Positions 2,592-64,000 of a stretch of DNA of 64,000 nt are shown here, one piece after another. The notes beneath the pieces were generated by a model, which saw only the letters and a list, made by a program, of their open reading frames with translations, did no database searches and was not told the DNA's origin. The stretch spans positions 14,817,201-14,881,200 of the forward strand of contig NC_092670.1 of the NCBI RefSeq assembly GCF_964355755.1. Reading direction: 5' to 3'. Within the stretch, counting starts at the first letter, position 1. Each line of letters starts with the position of its first letter. The DNA comes from Antedon mediterranea. Lineage: Eukaryota > Echinodermata > Crinoidea > Comatulida > Antedonidae. The position numbers and the translations under genes were made by a program.

Positions 2592-5500
2592 GTAAGTGCC
2601 ACATAATGTAGTTTTGTTTTCAGCAATTTCTTAATACTTCTCTCATTATTTCTGTAGGCTTTTAGTCTGAAGTTGCAGTGTAATATTCTATTGATCTCAT
2701 GTTTGTTTTTCCTCTAACTTAATTAACTATAAAAGAAAATATTCTACCAATATATGAGGTATATCAGGTTTAAATGTATACTAGATTGGACATCTCTTCA
2801 CCCACTTTTCATGGAAGCATAGACATATTATAATGAATAATTATAATAATAATATCTCTATGATTACCCAATTAGTTTTAATTAAATAAATAACATTTTT
2901 ACAGCTACGTTATCCATCAGTTTTTGCTCAAGAACAGAGACAGCTTGTTTCAGGATTTCAAACGATTGTTGTACAATAGTAGTAACCCCACCCTTAAAGC
3001 CATGTGGCCTGATGGAAAACAAAGTGTCAAACAGGTCAGAGGTCACAGTTCACCATTGCCATTCTAATCATTGGCTTTGCACCCTGCCTCATTTTCTGTG
3101 AATTGCAATCTGTGTTTGTTAATCATTTTAAAATTGGGAAAATTGGTGATATGTTAAATAACTGTCAATATGTATCGTCTGCTTTTGTGTAACAAAACTT
3201 GATAAACAGCATTTTGCATCTTGTTAGTTACAAAGTTCAACATTTTAAAGAGATTTTTATCATTAAACAAATTTATTTTTGTAGATATTATATTATAGAT
3301 ACTTTGAACTTGGGAACCAATATAAACTACACAGTTTTATATTGAAAAAAAAATTGTTTATTTTATTAAAATTTATCAACCGAATAATGAATGGGAGATT
3401 TATATCTTGCTTTTCTCCTGTGTTTGAAATGAAATTTTCTGTAATAAAGTAATTTATAAAATGCTTAGGTATACTAAAAAATATTTATAAACATTAGTAA
3501 TATTATTAATTGCAAGAGCCAGCATCATTTTGTCAGTACATTGTATATCCATCATTGTTTTTCCACCGGCTGCTTTTTCTGCACATTCCAACACCACATA
3601 TTGCAGGTACGATGTAAGAGGCTACATGGATAAGAATAAAGACACCTTATACCAAGATTTCAAACGTCTACTGTATTCAAGCAGCAATAAGTCAATTAAA
3701 GAAATGTGGCCAGACGGACAACAGAGTGTGTTGGAGGTATTGTAGCGCCACCGTAGATTTGACTTGATTTAACAAAGTAGAGTTGTAGCTTTGTATTTAA
3801 GATACTTGGCTACCAATCCCATTTTCTCATGAAAAAGACTTCAATCTTTCACATACTGTAAGTGTGCATACATTAAAAAACTAGTATTATTCCACATACC
3901 ACACCTAGTGTGTTAAAGAGTCTTTATCCAAATTTGAAACATCAATAAATCCCAAGTTGTCTAACTGTAGGATTTCTGTATATCAAATTTACAAATAAAT
4001 TAATATAATATTACATCTGTTTTTAAAACTCGCCTTTTAATTGTAAGCACTGCAGGATCTTTTAGTAAAGAGCACCTAAAAAATATCCAGTTTATTATTA
4101 TTATTATCAAGCAGAAGATTCTGGGTTTGAATCTAGGTTAGGCAGCTGTTTCTCATTCTCACATTCTCATAGATTTCCTCATCTTCACCCATAATCCTTT
4201 GCTTCTGCTATTTTATAATGTCACTATTTGTTGGTGAAGGGCAATTAAATATTATAGGTCTGGTTGAGTTTAATAATACTATTGCTTTATACAAACAATT
4301 TTAATAATTGTTTATTAAGATTACACTGGTTCTTAATATAATTACTTCACCATTTCAGGGTTCGAAATTTACCTTAGCAAACTATCATGATTTCTTACAA
4401 TCTGTAGTTTTAAATTTTAAAAGCTAGCTAATGTTTGCTTCCGGTCGTAATCTATCTTTAATAGCTAGTTTTCTACCCTGCCGTGTTGTATACATTCTGT
4501 TTTTTATCATTACATTTGCTTAATGTGTTAATTCTTATTAACATTAACAGGTTACAAAAAGACCTTTGACTGCAGGTACAATTTTCAAAAACTCAATGAT
4601 TGACCTAGTGAAGAAACTTACTACCAAGGTTAGTTAAGATTTTGATCGAAAGTAATGAATTGCGGTTGATTTTATGTTATTACACCATTGCATTTGAGTG
4701 CTGTTGAACCCCTATGAAAGACCTGACAAAGTGTCTTTTAAATAGAGGTGTCCCCTGAATAGAGATATCCTTGAATAGGGATTCCTTGAATAGAGATTCT
4801 CCTGAATAGAATGTCCTATAAGTATAGAGGTGTCCCTTAAATAGCAGTGTCCCCTGAAAGAGGTGTCCCCTGAATACGGGTGTCCCTTGAATATAGTTGT
4901 CCCCTGAGTAAAGGTGTCCCCTGAGTAAAGGTGTCCCCTGAGTAAAGGTGTCCCCTGAAAGAGGTCTCCCTTGAATAGGAGTGACCCTTGAATAGAGTTG
5001 TCCCCTGAGTAGATGTGTCCCCTGAAAGAGGTGTCCCTTGAATAGAAGTGACCATGTTGTTTCTTCAACTGACTTTCAATACACAAAATTATTCTTTGCA
5101 GGAGCCATATTATGTTAGATGCATCAAGCCAAATGAGCAGAAATCTCCACTTCTATTCAATGATGAAAGATGCCTTCATCAGGTGCGATATCTGGGTTTG
5201 TTGGAGAATGTGCGTGTACGTCGGGCTGGCTTTGCTGCACGTATACACTATTCAAGATTCTTACAAAGGTAAGTACTTGGTTAAAGTTATCTTTTTACAT
5301 CTATACATATATTGTATGCATCATCATGAACACACATAGATATGGAATCAAGAGTGCGAACCTCCAAGACAACCAGAAGGAGATGGCAAATGTTATGGAC
5401 TCTTGAGTACAAGTTCAAGATCTGTAAGGTTGTTTGTGTCATGTTTCACTCCTATTATCGTATACATTCAACTCTCCCAATACTGGAAACCTTGGAATAT

Positions 5501-8500: not shown

Positions 8501-9690
8501 CCATTAGAGAAAGTGTCAAACTCTCCATGGAGAAAATAATATAGAGCGGTACAACGTTCTATACACAGAGACTGCCGGAAATGATAAGATCAGCACACAC
8601 AGATGCACATTGTAACGTGTCGTAGAATAGACAGTTATTTGTTTATTAATGTGGAATAAATTAGGCTATAAACAATAAATCAGACAGCTGAAGAATCTCC
8701 TTCTATATATTTCCTCCACAGTGACCTCAAGCTTTACCACCCATCTATTCTTTTTGAACCCCACTTGACCTCTATGTATAAGCCATTGGAGATTTGTTTA
8801 AATGTTGTACAATTAAAACAATGGTACAAGTTTACACATTTCTTTCCATCCAAAGTTATAAAGATAAATATAGTTAAATTATTAATCATCTAAACATCTA
8901 AAATAAATCCTTCTTAATATCAACAAAAAGTGTACCAGCAGGGCGTCACCCTCTGTCATTTTGTCCAGAATTTAACTTAAAGATATTCTTTTTCGGTTTT
9001 CAAACAGATAACAGCTCTGAGTATAAGTCCAGGAACAGACCAACTGGTCATCGTCCACTTACAAAATGGAAACGATTTAGTTGTATGCTTGACCAACTCA
9101 TCTCAAGAAAATCGAGTTCCAGAATTTGTTGGTGTTCTATGCAGACATTGGGCAGTGTGAGTATTCCATGAATTCTAATTAGGTAATTTTGTATCATGTG
9201 ACATTGTAATTTATCCATTTACCATGTTTTCATAAGATCACATTGGACACCGCCATTTCCCATTTTCACAGCACCCTCAATGATACAGCAAAACAAATAT
9301 GCTACATGGGATTTATCATTCCTGGTTTGTTCAAGAATTTTTTTTAACCGCCCTAACATTCCTATTTCCACTACAAATTTGATCTCTCTAACATATTGAG
9401 GGCACACTACTAAATTGGCTCTATTCAATCCCACAATGCCTTTTTAAATGTTACATGTTTTGGATGAAGAGGATATTTTTGTGTTTTCTTTGATATTAAT
9501 ATATTAACATAAACCATTATAACATTATCATTTGTGTAGGACCAGGAATTCTGAACTGAAGGTGATAATAAATCCAATATTGAACTGTCAATTGGGTAAA
9601 AAACAACGGCATATTCAAATTGAGAAATCGCAAGTCTCATTTCCTGTCTTTGTGAAAAATGGAGAAGATTTAACATTAGCATACCCATAA
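177..9690 (+). CDS. MYO1D: Unconventional myosin-Id-like (class I myosin), 3' part of gene
   Basis: Actin-based motor of class I, expected to link membranes to actin. Exons read from GT..AG boundaries with continuous phase: 177-319, 1900-2125, 2461-2591, then either 2905-3034 or 3607-3736, then 4551-4628, 5102-5268, 5594-5801, 5940-6163, 6772-6916, 7371-7472, 8363-8476, 9008-9156, 9540-9690 (TAA 9688-9690). Either form codes for 655 residues. Class I myosins of this type have about 1,000 residues, so the N-terminal ~350, with the P-loop and switch 1, lie before the window. Visible motifs are switch 2 ([12 protein letters not shown]), the actin-binding segment ([12 protein letters not shown]), the converter ([17 protein letters not shown]), two IQ-like motifs and a basic TH1 tail. 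The stretch [14 protein letters not shown], the tail segment [10 protein letters not shown] and the tail end resemble Myo1d more than Myo1b or Myo1c. There is no SH3 domain. Myo1d against Myo1g cannot be settled by eye. Confidence 0.95.
911..1060. repeat. Small TIR element (AGAACCCCTATTAAGGGG family), intronic copy
   Basis: Ends read TACTGTAGAATCCC at the left and GGTTCTATCGTA at the right, an imperfect terminal inverted repeat. The internal sequence AGGGGACACCTTTATTAAGG also occurs, in variant form, at 44485-44884 and in the minisatellite at 4739-5053. It is probably a non-autonomous DNA transposon remnant. Confidence 0.6.
2223..2373 (-). mobile_element. tRNA-derived SINE, reverse orientation
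   Basis: On the minus strand a tRNA-like head (2302-2373) has box A (GTGGTCTAATGGTTAGGA) and box B (GGTTCGAATCCCGG), followed by a body beginning TGACTTCTCATTCTCACAG. The acceptor stem pairs poorly and the T stem has a mismatch, so this is not a functional tRNA. A related, more decayed copy lies at 4108-4262. Confidence 0.75.
2905..3034 (+). CDS. MYO1D: Myosin-Id alternative exon, version A (pre-loop 2 / loop 2)
   Basis: 130 nt, entered in phase 2 and left in phase 0, acceptor ACAG at 2901-2904, donor GTCAGA at 3035. Encodes 43 whole codons, opening [20 protein letters not shown] and closing [11 protein letters not shown]. It is homologous along its length to the exon at 3607-3736 and fits the same slot. 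The N-terminal part departs from the usual myosin pattern (FLLKN where DKN is normal), while NSSNP matches vertebrate Myo1d better than version B does. The closing segment feeds into loop 2, an actin-contact surface. By my count it is more basic here than in version B. It is intact, so decay is unlikely. Confidence 0.9.
3607..3736 (+). CDS. MYO1D: Myosin-Id alternative exon, version B (canonical pre-loop 2 / loop 2)
   Basis: 130 nt, same entry and exit phase as version A, acceptor TGCAG ending 3606, donor GTATTG at 3737. Encodes [20 protein letters not shown] at the start and [11 protein letters not shown] at the end. The DKNKDTL...DFKRLLY pattern is canonical for Myo1d. Because 130 is not a multiple of 3, an mRNA holding both versions shifts frame and meets TAA after eight codons of version B. 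This favours strictly exclusive use. The 572-nt intron between the two is too long for simple steric exclusion, so another mechanism must enforce the choice. Confidence 0.92.
4108..4262 (+). mobile_element. Degraded copy of the same tRNA-derived SINE
   Basis: CAAGCAGAAGATTCTGGGTT and the following TTTCTCATTCTCACATTCTC match the box-B-to-body part of the copy at 2223-2373 read on the other strand. The 5' tRNA half is missing. Confidence 0.65.
4551..5801 (+). CDS. MYO1D: Myosin-Id end of motor: loop 2, actin-binding segment, converter
   Basis: Exons 4551-4628 ([20 protein letters not shown]), 5102-5268 ([19 protein letters not shown] through [20 protein letters not shown]) and 5594-5801 ([15 protein letters not shown] through [17 protein letters not shown]). 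They carry the strongly conserved RCIKPN and [15 protein letters not shown] signatures. The usual FAFRQ/FAFRI is FAARI here, a mild departure. The intron 4629-5101 is largely a minisatellite. Confidence 0.94.
4739..5053. repeat. Minisatellite, ~17-18 bp unit GGTGTCCCCTGAATAGA
   Basis: About 18 imperfect tandem copies fill most of the intron between the myosin exons 4551-4628 and 5102-5268. The best preserved run is three near-identical GAGTAAAGGTGTCCCCT units around 4915-4960. The unit is a piece of the TIR family seen at 911-1060 and 44485-44884, so it probably grew from the end of a transposon. Confidence 0.85.
5940..6163 (+). CDS. MYO1D: Myosin-Id neck (two IQ motifs) and start of TH1 tail
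   Basis: A single exon, acceptor TTGTAG at 5934-5939, donor GTAATA at 6164. It opens [20 protein letters not shown]; with the preceding LLLQK this gives IQ1 ([17 protein letters not shown]). A second, weaker IQ follows ([18 protein letters not shown]). Both should bind calmodulin-type light chains. The exon runs into [20 protein letters not shown], the proline-rich junction typical of Myo1d before the tail. Confidence 0.92.
6772..9690 (+). CDS. MYO1D: Myosin-Id TH1 (lipid-binding) tail, C-terminus
   Basis: Exons 6772-6916 (includes [10 protein letters not shown]), 7371-7472 ([12 protein letters not shown]), 8363-8476 ([15 protein letters not shown]), 9008-9156 (ending [11 protein letters not shown]) and 9540-9690 (ending [10 protein letters not shown], stop TAA). 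The pattern [32 protein letters not shown] is the PH-like TH1 fold, which binds acidic phospholipids. The protein ends directly after TH1, as in short-tailed class I myosins. The introns hold only AT-rich sequence and possible LINE 3' tails, for example near 7195-7262. Confidence 0.93.
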
Positions 9691-18200: not shown

Positions 18201-21200
18201 GTGTTTATACGCCTGCTGTAAAGCTAGACAATTCATCTATTAAAATGTGTAGTTTGTGTTAGTCTGGAACGCGCTACCTGTCGATTTGAGAGGAGCGAAT
18301 TCGGCACCTCTATTTAAACGTCAACTTGAAACTGTTCTTTTTAATTAATTACCGGTACTAAGTATTGTTAGGCGCTCTGTTCTTTGTAGGGTGTCATATA
18401 AAAATTGTTAAAATAAAAATTAGTTTAGTGAAAAGAACAATCCACGTGAAGCCACGTTAGTGTCACATCGTGGCGTCACCGAAGACATGTTGACGCTTTT
18501 AATACGGATACACGATCTGAGGCAATTTCTTTGTAACAACAAATATACAGTAAATGAATACGAAACATAACAAATAACATGAATTCTAAAAAAAAAAAAA
18601 AACTAGGGCAATTCTTATAAATAAATAACACAAAATGTAAAAATATTATATATATATCTATATATATTATAATATCTTGCAACACGCACAACGCCGACCC
18701 TTATTATATACACGTTAAATTAAGTTATCGAGTTTAAAATAGTATTATTTCAAGTACTTAAAATTACCTTGACATTCATGCACGCGCGTTAGTACCAATG
18801 GTTATTTAATAACACGTACCTTATCTTAGCGCAAACACCGAAAGAACGAATGAGCTCCTCGTGGAGCATATTTAGCTCTCGTAGTGTATTATGATGCACG
18901 TGCACATATAGCGCATCTCGGGGCGTTAAGTCGAGTCGCAACAATATTGATGAAACGCGTAATAGTATTGCGGTAATGATTATTCATTCATAAAAGTTAT
19001 GAAATAATCATTTAAACAAGTTATTACAAAGTGAGACAGCAGTTATTACAAAGTGTGACAGCTTTTGTTATTACAAAGTGCGAGAGCTCGATTGTTACTA
19101 AGTGCGACAGCAGTTATTACAAAGTGCGACAGTTTTTTTATAAAGTGCAGGTATTACAAAGTGCGACGATTATTACAAAGTGCGACAGTACACTCGTTGC
19201 CATAAGTCTGTATTTGTTTTGTTTGTGTGTTTTTTGCTATGTAATTATGCACATAGATTAATTTTAAATGACAAGTTTAAAGAAACTGTTGAAGTTAATA
19301 AATTATAATGATTTTTTTTTATTCAGAGATTTATTTCACTACTATGACGAGCAACCTTTCAGGAATCATTGGTAGGTAAAATGACGTTATGCTAAATCAT
19401 AAAGTAGAGAACTGACTAACTCAGATCATGTTTCTTCCAACTGAAACTTCTTCAAATTTATGATAAGCCTAACTATCATGAAAAGAGAGAAGGACGACAA
19501 TGTATTTATTTGTGCCATATATGTTAGTAATTAGGTAACTACTGTAGGTAAATTGGAAGAGCATGCGTGTTAATATTTCAATATTCCAAACCCTTTCTGT
19601 AGAACGAACGAATTATAATCCATAGAGTTTTTAGCTTCAATTTGGTTTACAGTTTCCAATTTTGGGAAGCGAAGAATTGAGTTTTCACCAGTGACCTTAT
19701 ATAAATTGCCAATATATATATAAGCTCATTGGTAGTCACATACTCATGCAAATTCTGCAAACATTTCAGCAGACACGCCCTCGATCAAAAAGAAAATCGC
19801 AGCTATTTGCTCTTGTAGTGGAAAATAATTTTAAAGGTAGCGCGAAAAATTCACCTAATAGACAGTGCTTACCGTATATTATTATAGCCACAACTCTTAA
19901 TAATACATACAGCATATTACTTATAATTATATATGTTTAGACTATAAAGAGGATTACCAAAAAGCCGATGGTTATTGTACTACGTGGAGTCAGGACCACT
20001 ACCGAACATTTGATGGCAGAATATATACCTTCCATGGTTCCTGCCACTACCTTCTTCTTGAAGATGCTTCAGACCGGACTTTCCAGATCCACGCTAAGAA
20101 TGCAAAGGATTGTACTTCAAAAATGGTATGTAGCAGGTCATTGTCAATATACATATCCACTGTTGAGGTGACTCTGCAAAGATCTAAAGACACTCCGTTG
20201 GTTCTACGAAAAAACGGTCTTCAAGGAAGCGAACTTCAGGAACTTCCAACAGCATTTGATGGCATGGAAATTGAGCTGGTTTCTGGCTACATCGTCGTGC
20301 GTAGTGTGTACGGGTTTAATATTCGATGGGATGGGCATGATGCATTCTACATTTCTGTTGAAGACAAATTATTATCCAACACAAGAGGTCTTTGTGGAAC
20401 CTACACGTTAAATCCTGCGGATGACTTCACGTTGCGGGATGGTAGTGTTTCCCAATCTGCTGCATCTTTTGCATCAGAGTATACCATGAATCCAGAAGGT
20501 ATGTAACTTGTCTCACAAAAGGATCATCATTTTTCCTCAAGTGACGTTATGTTCAATTTAAAATGAATTATTTCTATGTTATTTTTAGCGCTGATCGGAA
20601 TAGCCGAACATGGTGACCGCTCGAAGAGTTCTCTCTTTCTTGCTTGATAGCTGGTAAACTGTTGGTTAGCTTGATCACAGTGTTTACTTTGGACGAAGAG
20701 AGGACATTGAACTTGTCCGTTATAAATGTGTATTTTGTTGTTGTAAAAAAGTAAATTTATATTTATTTTTTATTTTTTTAATGTTAAATGTTTGTCTGTT
20801 CATTTTGAATTGCAGACTGTGTTGCAAAGAGTCAAACTTCTTATTGTAAAGTGGACTCACCAAGTGACGTCGAACGTTCAGAAACAGAATGTGAGGCAAT
20901 GATGGTCGACGAAGAGTTTCGTATGTGTCATTTGGTAAATAATTGAATGGTGCGGTGGTGGAATGTGTAAAAGAAGGCTTCTGTTTTAGTGGTGATGTGG
21001 TCATCATACCAGTTTATGCTTGAAGAATAATTCAATTCAATATTTATATTTATGTTTAGTGTGCTTGTTTATGCAATGTAAAGACTGGATAGGAATGGGA
21101 GTAAATACAAAGAATGCCAGCTGTTATCTGTTGTTGTAAAATATTATTGTAGCCTAGGTACGAGTTTCTGTATGATCTGACACTCAATTGTCAAGCATTG

Positions 21201-60383: not shown

Positions 60384-60926
60384 GTAAGTAATAGTGTAGT
60401 CATAGTCATATAGTCATAGTCATATATACTTTATTGTCCATTTAAAAAAACAGAAATGTGATTTGAAAACTGGCAAAATACAAAAATATAAAATACAATT
60501 TACAAAAAAACACACAAAAAGTTAAGAGGCTAAAAATTGTTAAAATTAGATACAAATTATCGGTTACATGATGTAGCATCAGCTGCATATAGATGTGGAA
60601 ATATTTGTTTGTTTTATTACTACATTATAATACTCTTATGTCGCCAAGTACAACACAACGATAATTAGCTAAATTCATTTGTACTTTTATTTACACATCT
60701 CTCTGGCTTGAAAAATACTTCAAATAGAAATACACGGTCTTATTTTTAATTTATTAACTATGTAAAATATCTTGGTATAAACATTGATAATTCAATTAGC
60801 TGTGACTTATATAGTAGATAAAGTATAATGGTGGTAAATATTACTAAATACACACAATACTGTAAACCAAACTTGTCTTTATTAATGTTTCCATTGGATG
60901 TTGGACGTTAAATCGGAAATTTCATT
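60384..60926. other. AT-rich sequence between the last second-gene exon and LINE ORF1
   Basis: Starts with the intron donor GTAAGT. A stretch near 60400-60540 (TAGTCATAGTCATA, then ACTTTATTGTCCAT and A-rich runs) looks like a reverse-oriented retroelement tail. I cannot fix the LINE 5' end; it should lie within this interval, possibly close to 60900. Confidence 0.5.
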
Positions 60927-61796
60927 ATGGAAAGTGGAAAACAAGACAAAGAAAAAATCACCTACCACCTGAGATCTGTAAGGGCGGACGCCGAGGAAAC
61001 AATAGAACCGGTCAGCGCGGGAAGCGCAGCCCAACCGTCGAATTCCGTACTAGACCAGAAACTGGACATGATCATTCAAAAACTAGAATCGATGGATAAG
61101 CGTGTAAAAAACCTAGGATCCCGGATGAGTAAAGCAGAGGGAAAATCCAAAACACAAAATCAGGACATCGCAGAAATTCATCGGTCATTAGAATTCATTG
61201 GTAAAAGTGTAGAAGAAAACACAACAAAATGCAAGTCGACAAGTGAAATTACAGGTAATTTTGAATATTTACAAAACAAAGTTGAAGACCTGGAAAACAG
61301 GTCCAGAAGAAATAACCTTGTAATTCACAACGTACCGGAAGGCTATGAAAAGAAGGAAAATAAAACATGTGAAGAATTAGTGAAATATATATTAACCTCC
61401 CATATGAAATTGGAAGATGGCGAACACATCGAGATCGAACGCGCCCATAGAACACCTGGCTATTTGCATAATAAAGGATCAACAAAACGCAAACAAACGC
61501 CTAGGCTGATTCATGTTAAGTTACTCCGCTTCACTGATCGTCAATTTGTACTGAGGAATGCTGCAAAAACGCTGAAGAACTATCCACTGCACACCAATCT
61601 TATATATATTAGCGACGATGTTTCAAAGAAGGTGAGAGAGCAGCGGAAAATACTGAGGCAAAATCACATCGAAAGAATAAGACGGCGATCGGACGTTAAG
61701 TTCGCGTTTATCCCGTTCTGTGTGCCTCCAGTTATTAGATACCAGAAGCAAGATGGCCGCTTTGAATCATTCGTACCTGGACAAAACAGCAAATGA
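60927..61796 (+). CDS. LINE ORF1 protein (coiled coil, RRM, C-terminal domain)
   Basis: 289 residues. An N-terminal basic/acidic segment is followed by a coiled coil (about residues 45-115: LDMIIQKLESMDKRVKNLGS onward). Next is the RRM start (LENRSRRNNLVIHNVPEG, about 120-140) with EIERAHRTPG and RLIHVKLLRF. Then comes a C-terminal domain ending with ISDDVSKKVREQRKILRQ. In L1 this protein trimerises, binds element RNA and acts as a chaperone in the RNP. The length is close to that of vertebrate L1 ORF1. The start is the first ATG in frame, in context TTCATTATGG. Confidence 0.9.
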   Translation: MESGKQDKEKITYHLRSVRADAEETIEPVSAGSAAQPSNSVLDQKLDMIIQKLESMDKRVKNLGSRMSKAEGKSKTQNQDIAEIHRSLEFIGKSVEENTTKCKSTSEITGNFEYLQNKVEDLENRSRRNNLVIHNVPEGYEKKENKTCEELVKYILTSHMKLEDGEHIEIERAHRTPGYLHNKGSTKRKQTPRLIHVKLLRFTDRQFVLRNAAKTLKNYPLHTNLIYISDDVSKKVREQRKILRQNHIERIRRRSDVKFAFIPFCVPPVIRYQKQDGRFESFVPGQNSK

Positions 61797-62272
61797 ACTA
61801 CCAGGGTGTAAACAAAAGGTATTTTGATCCCTAGACTGTGAACACTTTTTATAATTTTCTTTTTTATCTATTACTACGGCATTGCAAATATAGATATGTT
61901 TTATATCAATTTACATGTACATGATAGCTACTCGCAGATGGCGATGGTTATCCAATGCTACGCATTTTTGTATTTGATGTTCTCAAGTGTAATTAATGTT
62001 AATGTTATCTTTAATTTTATTTTTTTTATTTTGAGTATCGCATTTTATAGACTATTAAATGTGTATGTTTTTATACCCACGGTAATGGAAACGGCTATAC
62101 AAAACCGGACTCCGCTAATTATTTGCATTCTTAACATATACTATTTATTTCCATCAGATAACGATGTACAGTATCTATAACGACGTTTATGATCTCAATT
62201 GTTATTATCTCTCTGATATAACTAAATGTATAATAATAACGCAGACAGTAATAAAACCACAAAAAAATAAAT

Positions 62273-64000
62273 ATGGGTAGCATAGATATATGTAGTTTAA
62301 ATGTACGGGGGCTTAGAAACCCTTTTAAACGCAGCACCGTATTTAATTGGCTAAGGGATCAACCCTTCTCCATATATCTCCTACAAGAAACCCACTGCAC
62401 ACATGAGCTGGAAACTGCGTGGCGTAATGACTGGGGTTCTGAGATTAAATTTAGCAATGGAAAGAATAATTCGGCTGGAGTCTGTATTCTTTTAAAATTA
62501 AATGTCAGCTACAAAATAGGAAACATATACAATGATCAAAATGGGAAATTTATTATTATGAATATACAAATAGAGGATAAACATATTACAATTGCAAATT
62601 TATATGGACCAAATGATGACAACAGTTTCTTTTTTGAACAATTTAATAATAAAATTGAGGAGTTCGCACAGTACTCTCTAATAATAGGCGGAGATTTTAA
62701 TACAATACTTGAACCTGATCTGGATAAGAAAAATGGAAGAGGTCAAATTCACCCGAGATCTGTAGAACAAATAAATAGTATAAAAGACAATTATAATTTA
62801 ATTGACATCTGGAGACAGGAAAATCCAACTAAAACCCAATTTACATGGCACTCCAATCAATCTCCAAAAGTGTTCTGTAGGTTAGATTATTTTCTTATAT
62901 CCTATGAACTTTGGTCTCAAGTTGAAAAAACTTTAATATCACCGGGTTTTAAAAGTGACCATTCATTGATTACGTTATCAATACATGGAATAACAAGCAA
63001 ACGAGGGTCAGGTTTCTGGAAACTGAATACAAGCCTTTTAAGTGACCCACAATACGTTAAAGAAATTAAAGAAACCATAAAAAACACAAAAGAAGAATGT
63101 TTAGAAAATAACCCACATACTGTATGGGAAATGATAAAATGTAATACAAGGAGAACATCAATGTCGTATTCTGGTAGACTAAATAAAACAATTAAAAAAG
63201 ACGCGGATCGATTAAACAATGAAATCAAAACCTTAGAAGAGCAATATTGCGTAAACAGTAATGAAAAAATAACCGAAATGATCCAAATTAAAAGAAACGA
63301 ACTAGAATCAATCTATGAAATTAGAACACGTGGCTCACTGATTCGATCCAAAGCCCGTTGGATAGAAGAAGGAGAAAAAAGCACGAAATATTTTCTTAAT
63401 TTAGAGAGGAGGAATTATAATAAAAAGCATATAACTAAAATTACAACAGATAATGGAGACATAACTAACCCCGACGATATAATAAATGAAGAAAAACGAT
63501 TCTATGAATCATTATATAGTTTTGAAGGCGAAAATAACAATGTCAACCCTGCTGATATTTTTGACAAGATACACATAGATAAAATCAATAAAGATGATGA
63601 ATCTATATGTGACCAGCCCCTTAGAGATACAGAATGTTTAGAAGCATTAAAGGCGATGGATAACAATAAAACCCCTGGGACAGATGGTTTTCCTGCCGAG
63701 TTTTATAAACTATTTTGGAATGATATAAAAGATACGCTAATTAACGCTTACCATTATTCTTTCCAATCCGGGTTTTTAAGTATCTCCCAGAAACGAGGGG
63801 TGATATCACTTATACCGAAAAAAGATAAATCTCCGCTATTATTGAAAAACTGGCGTCCCATCTCGCTTTTAAATGTGGATTATAAAATTTTAGCAAAAGC
63901 CATTGCGACTCGTTTAAAATGTGTGCTGCCATCAGTAATTAATCCTGATCAAACGGGCTTTCTTAAAGGCAGATATATTGGAGAAAACATAAGATTAGTC
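62273..64000 (+). CDS. LINE ORF2: AP endonuclease and reverse transcriptase, partial
   Basis: 576 codons without a stop to the window edge. Endonuclease motifs in order: SLNVRGLRNP, LLQETHC, ANLYGPND, IIGGDFNTI, CRLDYFLIS and GFKSDHSL, containing the catalytic Asn, Glu, Asp and His residues of the APE-like fold. The linker carries ARWIEEGEKSTKYFLN. Reverse transcriptase starts with NNKTPGTDGFPAEFYK, VISLIPKK, NWRPISLLNVDYKILAKAIA and DQTGFLKGRYIGENI. The catalytic YADD block lies beyond the window. It nicks target DNA and primes reverse transcription there. Confidence 0.94.
   Translation, partial: MGSIDICSLNVRGLRNPFKRSTVFNWLRDQPFSIYLLQETHCTHELETAWRNDWGSEIKFSNGKNNSAGVCILLKLNVSYKIGNIYNDQNGKFIIMNIQIEDKHITIANLYGPNDDNSFFFEQFNNKIEEFAQYSLIIGGDFNTILEPDLDKKNGRGQIHPRSVEQINSIKDNYNLIDIWRQENPTKTQFTWHSNQSPKVFCRLDYFLISYELWSQVEKTLISPGFKSDHSLITLSIHGITSKRGSGFWKLNTSLLSDPQYVKEIKETIKNTKEECLENNPHTVWEMIKCNTRRTSMSYSGRLNKTIKKDADRLNNEIKTLEEQYCVNSNEKITEMIQIKRNELESIYEIRTRGSLIRSKARWIEEGEKSTKYFLNLERRNYNKKHITKITTDNGDITNPDDIINEEKRFYESLYSFEGENNNVNPADIFDKIHIDKINKDDESICDQPLRDTECLEALKAMDNNKTPGTDGFPAEFYKLFWNDIKDTLINAYHYSFQSGFLSISQKRGVISLIPKKDKSPLLLKNWRPISLLNVDYKILAKAIATRLKCVLPSVINPDQTGFLKGRYIGENIRLV

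Follow-up and report, generated by a model that had tools for sequence, protein, structure and literature searches.

A putative pair of mutually exclusive exons in the motor domain of a Myo1d-like class I myosin gene of Antedon mediterranea

Analysis of a 64,000-nucleotide stretch of Antedon mediterranea DNA (hereafter the window) revealed two adjacent homologous exons, A and B, in the motor domain of a class I myosin gene. The reading that we prefer, with a probability of about 0.78, is that they form a mutually exclusive pair, which would have arisen by the tandem duplication of a single exon long ago within a Myo1d-like gene, and that the gene makes two motors with different actin affinity and a different mode of cleft closure. 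If this is true, the choice of motor exons described for muscle myosins would extend to the tuning of a class I motor that is linked to membranes. The coordinates of the gene and of the exons around the pair are given in Table 1.

Table 1. Position of the myosin gene and of the alternative exons in the window
Feature	Start	End	Strand	Remarks
Class I myosin gene, part inside the window	177	9690	+	motor, neck, TH1 tail; stop TAA at 9688-9690
Constitutive exon 5' of the pair	2461	2591	+	peptide ends HYAGDV; donor CAC/gtaagt
Alternative exon A	2905	3034	+	130 nt; acceptor ...ttacag; donor CAG/gtcaga; net charge +4
Intron between A and B	3035	3606	+	572 nt; 28% GC
Alternative exon B	3607	3736	+	130 nt; acceptor ...ttgcag; donor GAG/gtattg; net charge 0; common G and D before KN kept
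Constitutive exon 3' of the pair	4551	4628	+	second half of loop 2 with basic KR, start of the next helix

The window begins inside the myosin gene, the 5' part of which lies upstream; its exons were traced back to G000:C1:14801556, and the first exon or exons lie further out. In the joined C-terminal piece of 364 amino acids, a Myosin_TH1 domain (PF06017) was detected at residues 176–346 with a score of 120.7 bits, and a Pfam search of this piece at an E-value of 0.001 found neither SH3 nor any other domain beside TH1. The presence of the TH1 tail, the end of the gene soon after it, and the absence of SH3 thus indicate a short-tailed class I myosin. The label "Myo1d" is provisional; it fits such a tail and the close likeness of the product to vertebrate MYO1D. 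A six-frame search of the genome with PF06017 returned exons on contigs C11 and C2 only and missed this gene, as can happen with short exons. In a structure search, the best solved relatives were Myo1c and Myo1b, and Myo1d was absent among the best 60 of 150 and 151 matches; the alignment with Myo1c had an E-value of 5.5e-99 for the version of the motor with B and 3.2e-97 for the version with A. The neck gave a single weak Pfam match to IQ (E = 0.19), which is under the cut-off, and another IQ-like stretch was seen by eye; two IQ motifs are given for fly myo1D in the available passages of PMC10374968. The naming of invertebrate Myo1 subclasses varies between sources, and passages of PMC6537884 assign no "Myo1D" to Drosophilidae, unlike those of PMC10374968.

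The first-pass annotation had described A and B as adjacent homologous exons of equal length that are entered in phase 2 and left in phase 0, each flanked by an AG and a GT of its own, and this was confirmed. When either A or B alone was spliced between positions 2591 and 4551, the frame stayed open throughout the joined stretch. The joining of A to B led to the anticipated frameshift and early TAA: B was then read as VRCKRLHG, with the stop after eight of its codons. Skipping of both exons gave TLQKDL, followed by TGA. The use of one exon or the other, as had been proposed, therefore appears well supported by the reading frame together with the coding constraint between the copies. The donor of A matches GTRAGT at 4/6 positions and that of B at 3/6, and the other donors of the gene, taken where they fit exon ends, match at 3 to 6. 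In two other class I myosin genes, located on C2 and C11 (L003 and L004), inspection by eye placed the upstream intron in phase 0 and 5 nt further upstream, and loop 2 of the C2 gene appeared by eye to have no internal intron. The differing intron positions in the C2 and C11 genes thus suggest that the duplicated exon has boundaries of its own.

Comparison with Myo1b and Myo1c showed that the 43 residues encoded by each exon span the end of a strand, the motif G-F-x-D-K-N-x-D, the next helix, and approximately the first half of loop 2; the limits of strand, helix, and loop within the exon follow the general myosin fold. The pair had been described as reshaping loop 2, and this is correct in part: of the 43 residues, only approximately the final 8 belong to loop 2, in its first half, the strut region is covered as well, and the next, constitutive exon (4551–4628) encodes the basic KR of the loop. 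In the strut region, Myo1b and Myo1c both have G-F-x-D-K-N, whereas B has G-Y-M-D-K-N and A has Q-F-L-L-K-N. Thus, A has no acidic residue directly before K-N and no Gly three positions before that. The most unusual change in A is this departure from the common G-F-x-D/E-K-N, which is situated upstream of loop 2 and adjoins the strut. The swing of about four charge units given in the first-pass annotation was reproduced, with +2 in A and −2 in B over the last 13 residues; over the loop-2 stretch with the constitutive KR included, the net charge is about +3 with A and 0 with B.

According to the passages of PMC5550493, the upper 50K domain is connected to the lower one by the strut, whose Asp590 in Dictyostelium belongs to a proposed allosteric branch point. 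By numbering (index 590 in chain 1fmv, derived from the alignment range), this residue is the Asp of K-N-K-D. The equivalent Asp is present in both A and B, and the loss of a key strut acid in A was rejected as an explanation. Since the Asp is kept at this position in both copies, the effect of the swap may be mild.

Myo1b, Myo1c, and the C2 paralogue share the Gly and the Asp of B (3/3 at each position), whereas at the aromatic position all three agree with A (3/3). Over the whole exon, matches at the 43 positions numbered 10 with A and 14 with B for Myo1b, 14 with each for the C2 paralogue, and 13 with A and 14 with B for Myo1c, the last two counts being approximate after a gap in Myo1c. B thus looks a little more canonical, and neither exon appears decayed. 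The ten other myosin loci compared (L003–L012) are a subset of the myosins of the genome, two of them, L011 and L012, coming from one array. Among these loci, the Gly position holds Gly in 9/10, with Phe in L007, and the acid position holds D or E in 9/10, with Lys in L012. In addition, Myosin-7 (PDB 8qyp) has Gln at the acid position and myosin-XV has Lys at the Gly position. Invariance of the Gly and of the acid among myosins was rejected because of these counter-examples.

The array that contains L011 and L012 is located on contig C3 of G000 at approximately 19.6–25.1 Mb and is a large gene expansion: at least 19 matches to one stretch of Myosin_head (profile positions ~342–408) were detected in 5.5 Mb. 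By eye, the motor of the array is class V-like, and none of the four DIL-domain matches in the genome (0/4) lies on C3. L012 has two IQ-like frames and, after them, a frame with a hydrophobic end, which by eye is perhaps a membrane anchor.

A and B are identical at 79/130 nucleotides and 25/43 amino acids, a likeness beyond chance. In searches of the whole 354-Mb assembly, each exon retrieved its partner, with E-values of 4.3e-12 for the A query and 7.9e-12 for the B query. The other matches were weak and fell in other myosin loci: one for A (E = 0.011) and three for B (E from 0.002 to 1.1). No third copy of A or B was found by these exon searches. Among 20 listed exon peptides of the gene, A and B included, searched against 31.2 kb, the only strong mutual match was that between A and B (3.6e-16), the next cross-hit having an E-value of 0.028, and no duplicated flanking exon of the gene was found in this region. 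These results bear on the possibility that the second exon stems from a misassembly or from part of another gene copy lodged in the intron. No sign in favor of such an origin was seen; no further copy of either exon was found in the assembly, phase and length match the host gene exactly, and the flanking exons are single in the 31.2 kb searched. We therefore regard an artifact or a stray fragment as extremely unlikely.

Another alternative is that one of the exons is a relic, rarely or never spliced, and that a single motor is made; because it departs from the GFxDKN motif, A would be the likelier relic. The deviation of A at the Gly and Asp positions, where Myo1b, Myo1c, and the C2 paralogue agree with B, is in favor of this explanation, as is the C at position +3 of the A donor (gtcaga). 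However, despite saturated synonymous change, A still has an open frame and its two splice sites, and its Pfam Myosin_head (PF00063) score, as measured on the joined versions of the motor (310.0 bits with B, 308.4 bits with A), lies within 1.6 bits of that of B. The two copies are alike at 60/86 sites of codon positions 1 and 2 and at 19/43 of position 3 (Fisher p = 0.007), and their divergence amounts to a dN of 0.31 and a pS of 0.94, that is, synonymous sites are saturated beyond correction. In neutral simulations (n = 3000) that started from B and drifted without selection to the observed identity at third positions, with an intron-like base composition and no indels, the frame was still open in 97/3000 runs, at least 60 matches at positions 1 and 2 were kept in 30/3000, and at least 25 identical residues in 0/3000; the comparison is blind to a recent loss of use. 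Both A and B thus look constrained as protein, and a relic is unlikely. The second exon might also act as a switch of expression level, with the difference in protein being secondary: inclusion of A and B together or skipping of both would lead to a stop and to nonsense-mediated decay, and both faulty products do stop early, with more exons downstream. Constraint on the protein in both exons and a clustered charge difference would be needless for a poison exon, and we consider a role mainly in expression level quite unlikely. Two functional motor versions, chosen by mutually exclusive splicing, thus remain the preferred explanation.

With regard to the control of this choice, the frame predicts that only messages with one of the two exons are productive, and messages with double inclusion or double skipping would be expected to be degraded. 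The choice would then be enforced by the frame, nonsense-mediated decay, and regulators together. Simple steric exclusion was rejected as the cause, since an intron of 572 nt is too long for it. Pairing of docking and selector RNA elements between introns was also set aside: in a crude test on one genome, pairing between the introns did not exceed that of shuffled sequences: 16, 25, and 13 of 60 shuffles gave whole-intron duplexes at least as good as the best ones observed. None of the motifs TGCATG, ACTAAC, and CTCTCT occurs in the three introns; TCTCT is found three times upstream of A. No U12-type sites were apparent by eye.

The two isoforms are predicted to differ in the first half of loop 2 and, before it, in the strand, strut region, and helix that link the upper and lower 50K subdomains. 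This difference would be expected to affect actin affinity, ATPase activation, and sliding speed, and not the cargo. The action of a basic loop 2 is known from myosin classes other than class I. The motor with A, which combines a more basic loop 2 (about +3 versus 0) with the absence of the common Gly and Asp before Lys-Asn, would be expected to hold actin more tightly in weak states and to differ in cleft closure. According to passages of PMC7994445, short-loop myosins, Myo1b among them, contact actin through positively charged residues in loop 2 and in the strut; stronger actin binding is expected of A because its loop 2 is the more basic.

We infer a link to left-right asymmetry through the likely orthology of the gene with Myo1d. 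In Drosophila, the handedness of induced chirality is determined by the motor domain, be it that of Myo1D or of Myo1C, and the deciding part of the motor domain is not specified in the available passages of the source (PMC10374968). A natural swap within the motor domain would matter for this reason, and an exchange of only 43 residues, located near the strut and in the first half of loop 2, would provide a ready-made test of this segment for chirality. It is conceivable, although very unlikely, that one Myo1d gene houses both kinds of fly motor, so that the motor would be a fast transporter with one exon and a strong tether with the other, and the choice would set the strength or even the direction of cell and organ chirality.

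Other features were noted in the window. In the myosin gene, the intron at 4700–5050 is packed with degenerate repeats of the type GAATAGAGGTGTCCCCT, which result in long open frames on the minus strand. Between positions 19904 and 59728, VWD (1), C8 (2), TIL (2), and cystine-knot (1) domains were detected among 8 frames scanned; frames that by eye are similar to those with VWD, C8, and TIL continue to 59.7 kb, and long frames rich in T-T-T-S-P occur at 27.7–33.5 kb. This region resembles gel-forming mucin genes, perhaps two in tandem. A LINE-type retrotransposon occupies positions 60912–64000, and its frame with endonuclease and reverse transcriptase runs past the end of the window. It is preceded by a frame that looks coiled-coil-like by eye and may be ORF1, the Pfam matches being below the cut-off.

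Among known systems, no report of a mutually exclusive exon pair in a class I myosin was found in the literature searched, which lies outside subscription journals and supplements, and the term "mutually exclusive" is absent from the available text of the review PMC6981383. Alternative splicing also tunes the motor of a class I myosin in vertebrate Myo1b, the splice isoforms of which are cited in the same text. Myo1b and Myo1c of vertebrates (PDB 6c1d and 4byf) belong to one family with the motor studied here and can be aligned with it across the whole exon, and A resembles Myo1b in its basic loop 2 (by eye). The vertebrate Myo1b isoforms vary in the number of IQ motifs in the neck and are not known to involve a swap of an exon in the motor domain. 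The Drosophila Myo1D and Myo1C are likewise class I motors with a difference within the motor domain, which in the fly sets the direction of organ chirality (PMC10374968); however, the fly has two genes, whereas here 43 residues would be swapped within one gene.

A close parallel is provided by the muscle Mhc genes, in which mutually exclusive exons encode parts of the motor and the clusters of such exons are numbered from the N to the C terminus (PMC3912159, in the passages available). According to the same passages, cluster-8, located at loop 2, dates back to the bilaterian ancestor and also occurs in sea urchins and in an acorn worm, and the ctenophore cluster-0 is located at loop-1 and switch-1. 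The pair described here shares with the Mhc clusters, and above all with cluster-8, the presence of tandem homologous exons within the myosin motor near loop 2. The Mhc genes belong to class II, whereas the gene studied here belongs to class I. Unlike in cluster-8, the C-terminal stretch of loop 2 is encoded here by the single exon 4551–4628, and the duplicated exon is located just upstream. It lies between the places of Mhc clusters 7 and 8, and an overlap with them is unlikely, judged on limits that the text of PMC3912159 gives in part. According to the passages of PMC2257972, the additional exon pairs of arthropod Mhc1 usually have their more canonical variant on the 3' side; in the same manner, the 3' exon of the present pair, B, is slightly more canonical.
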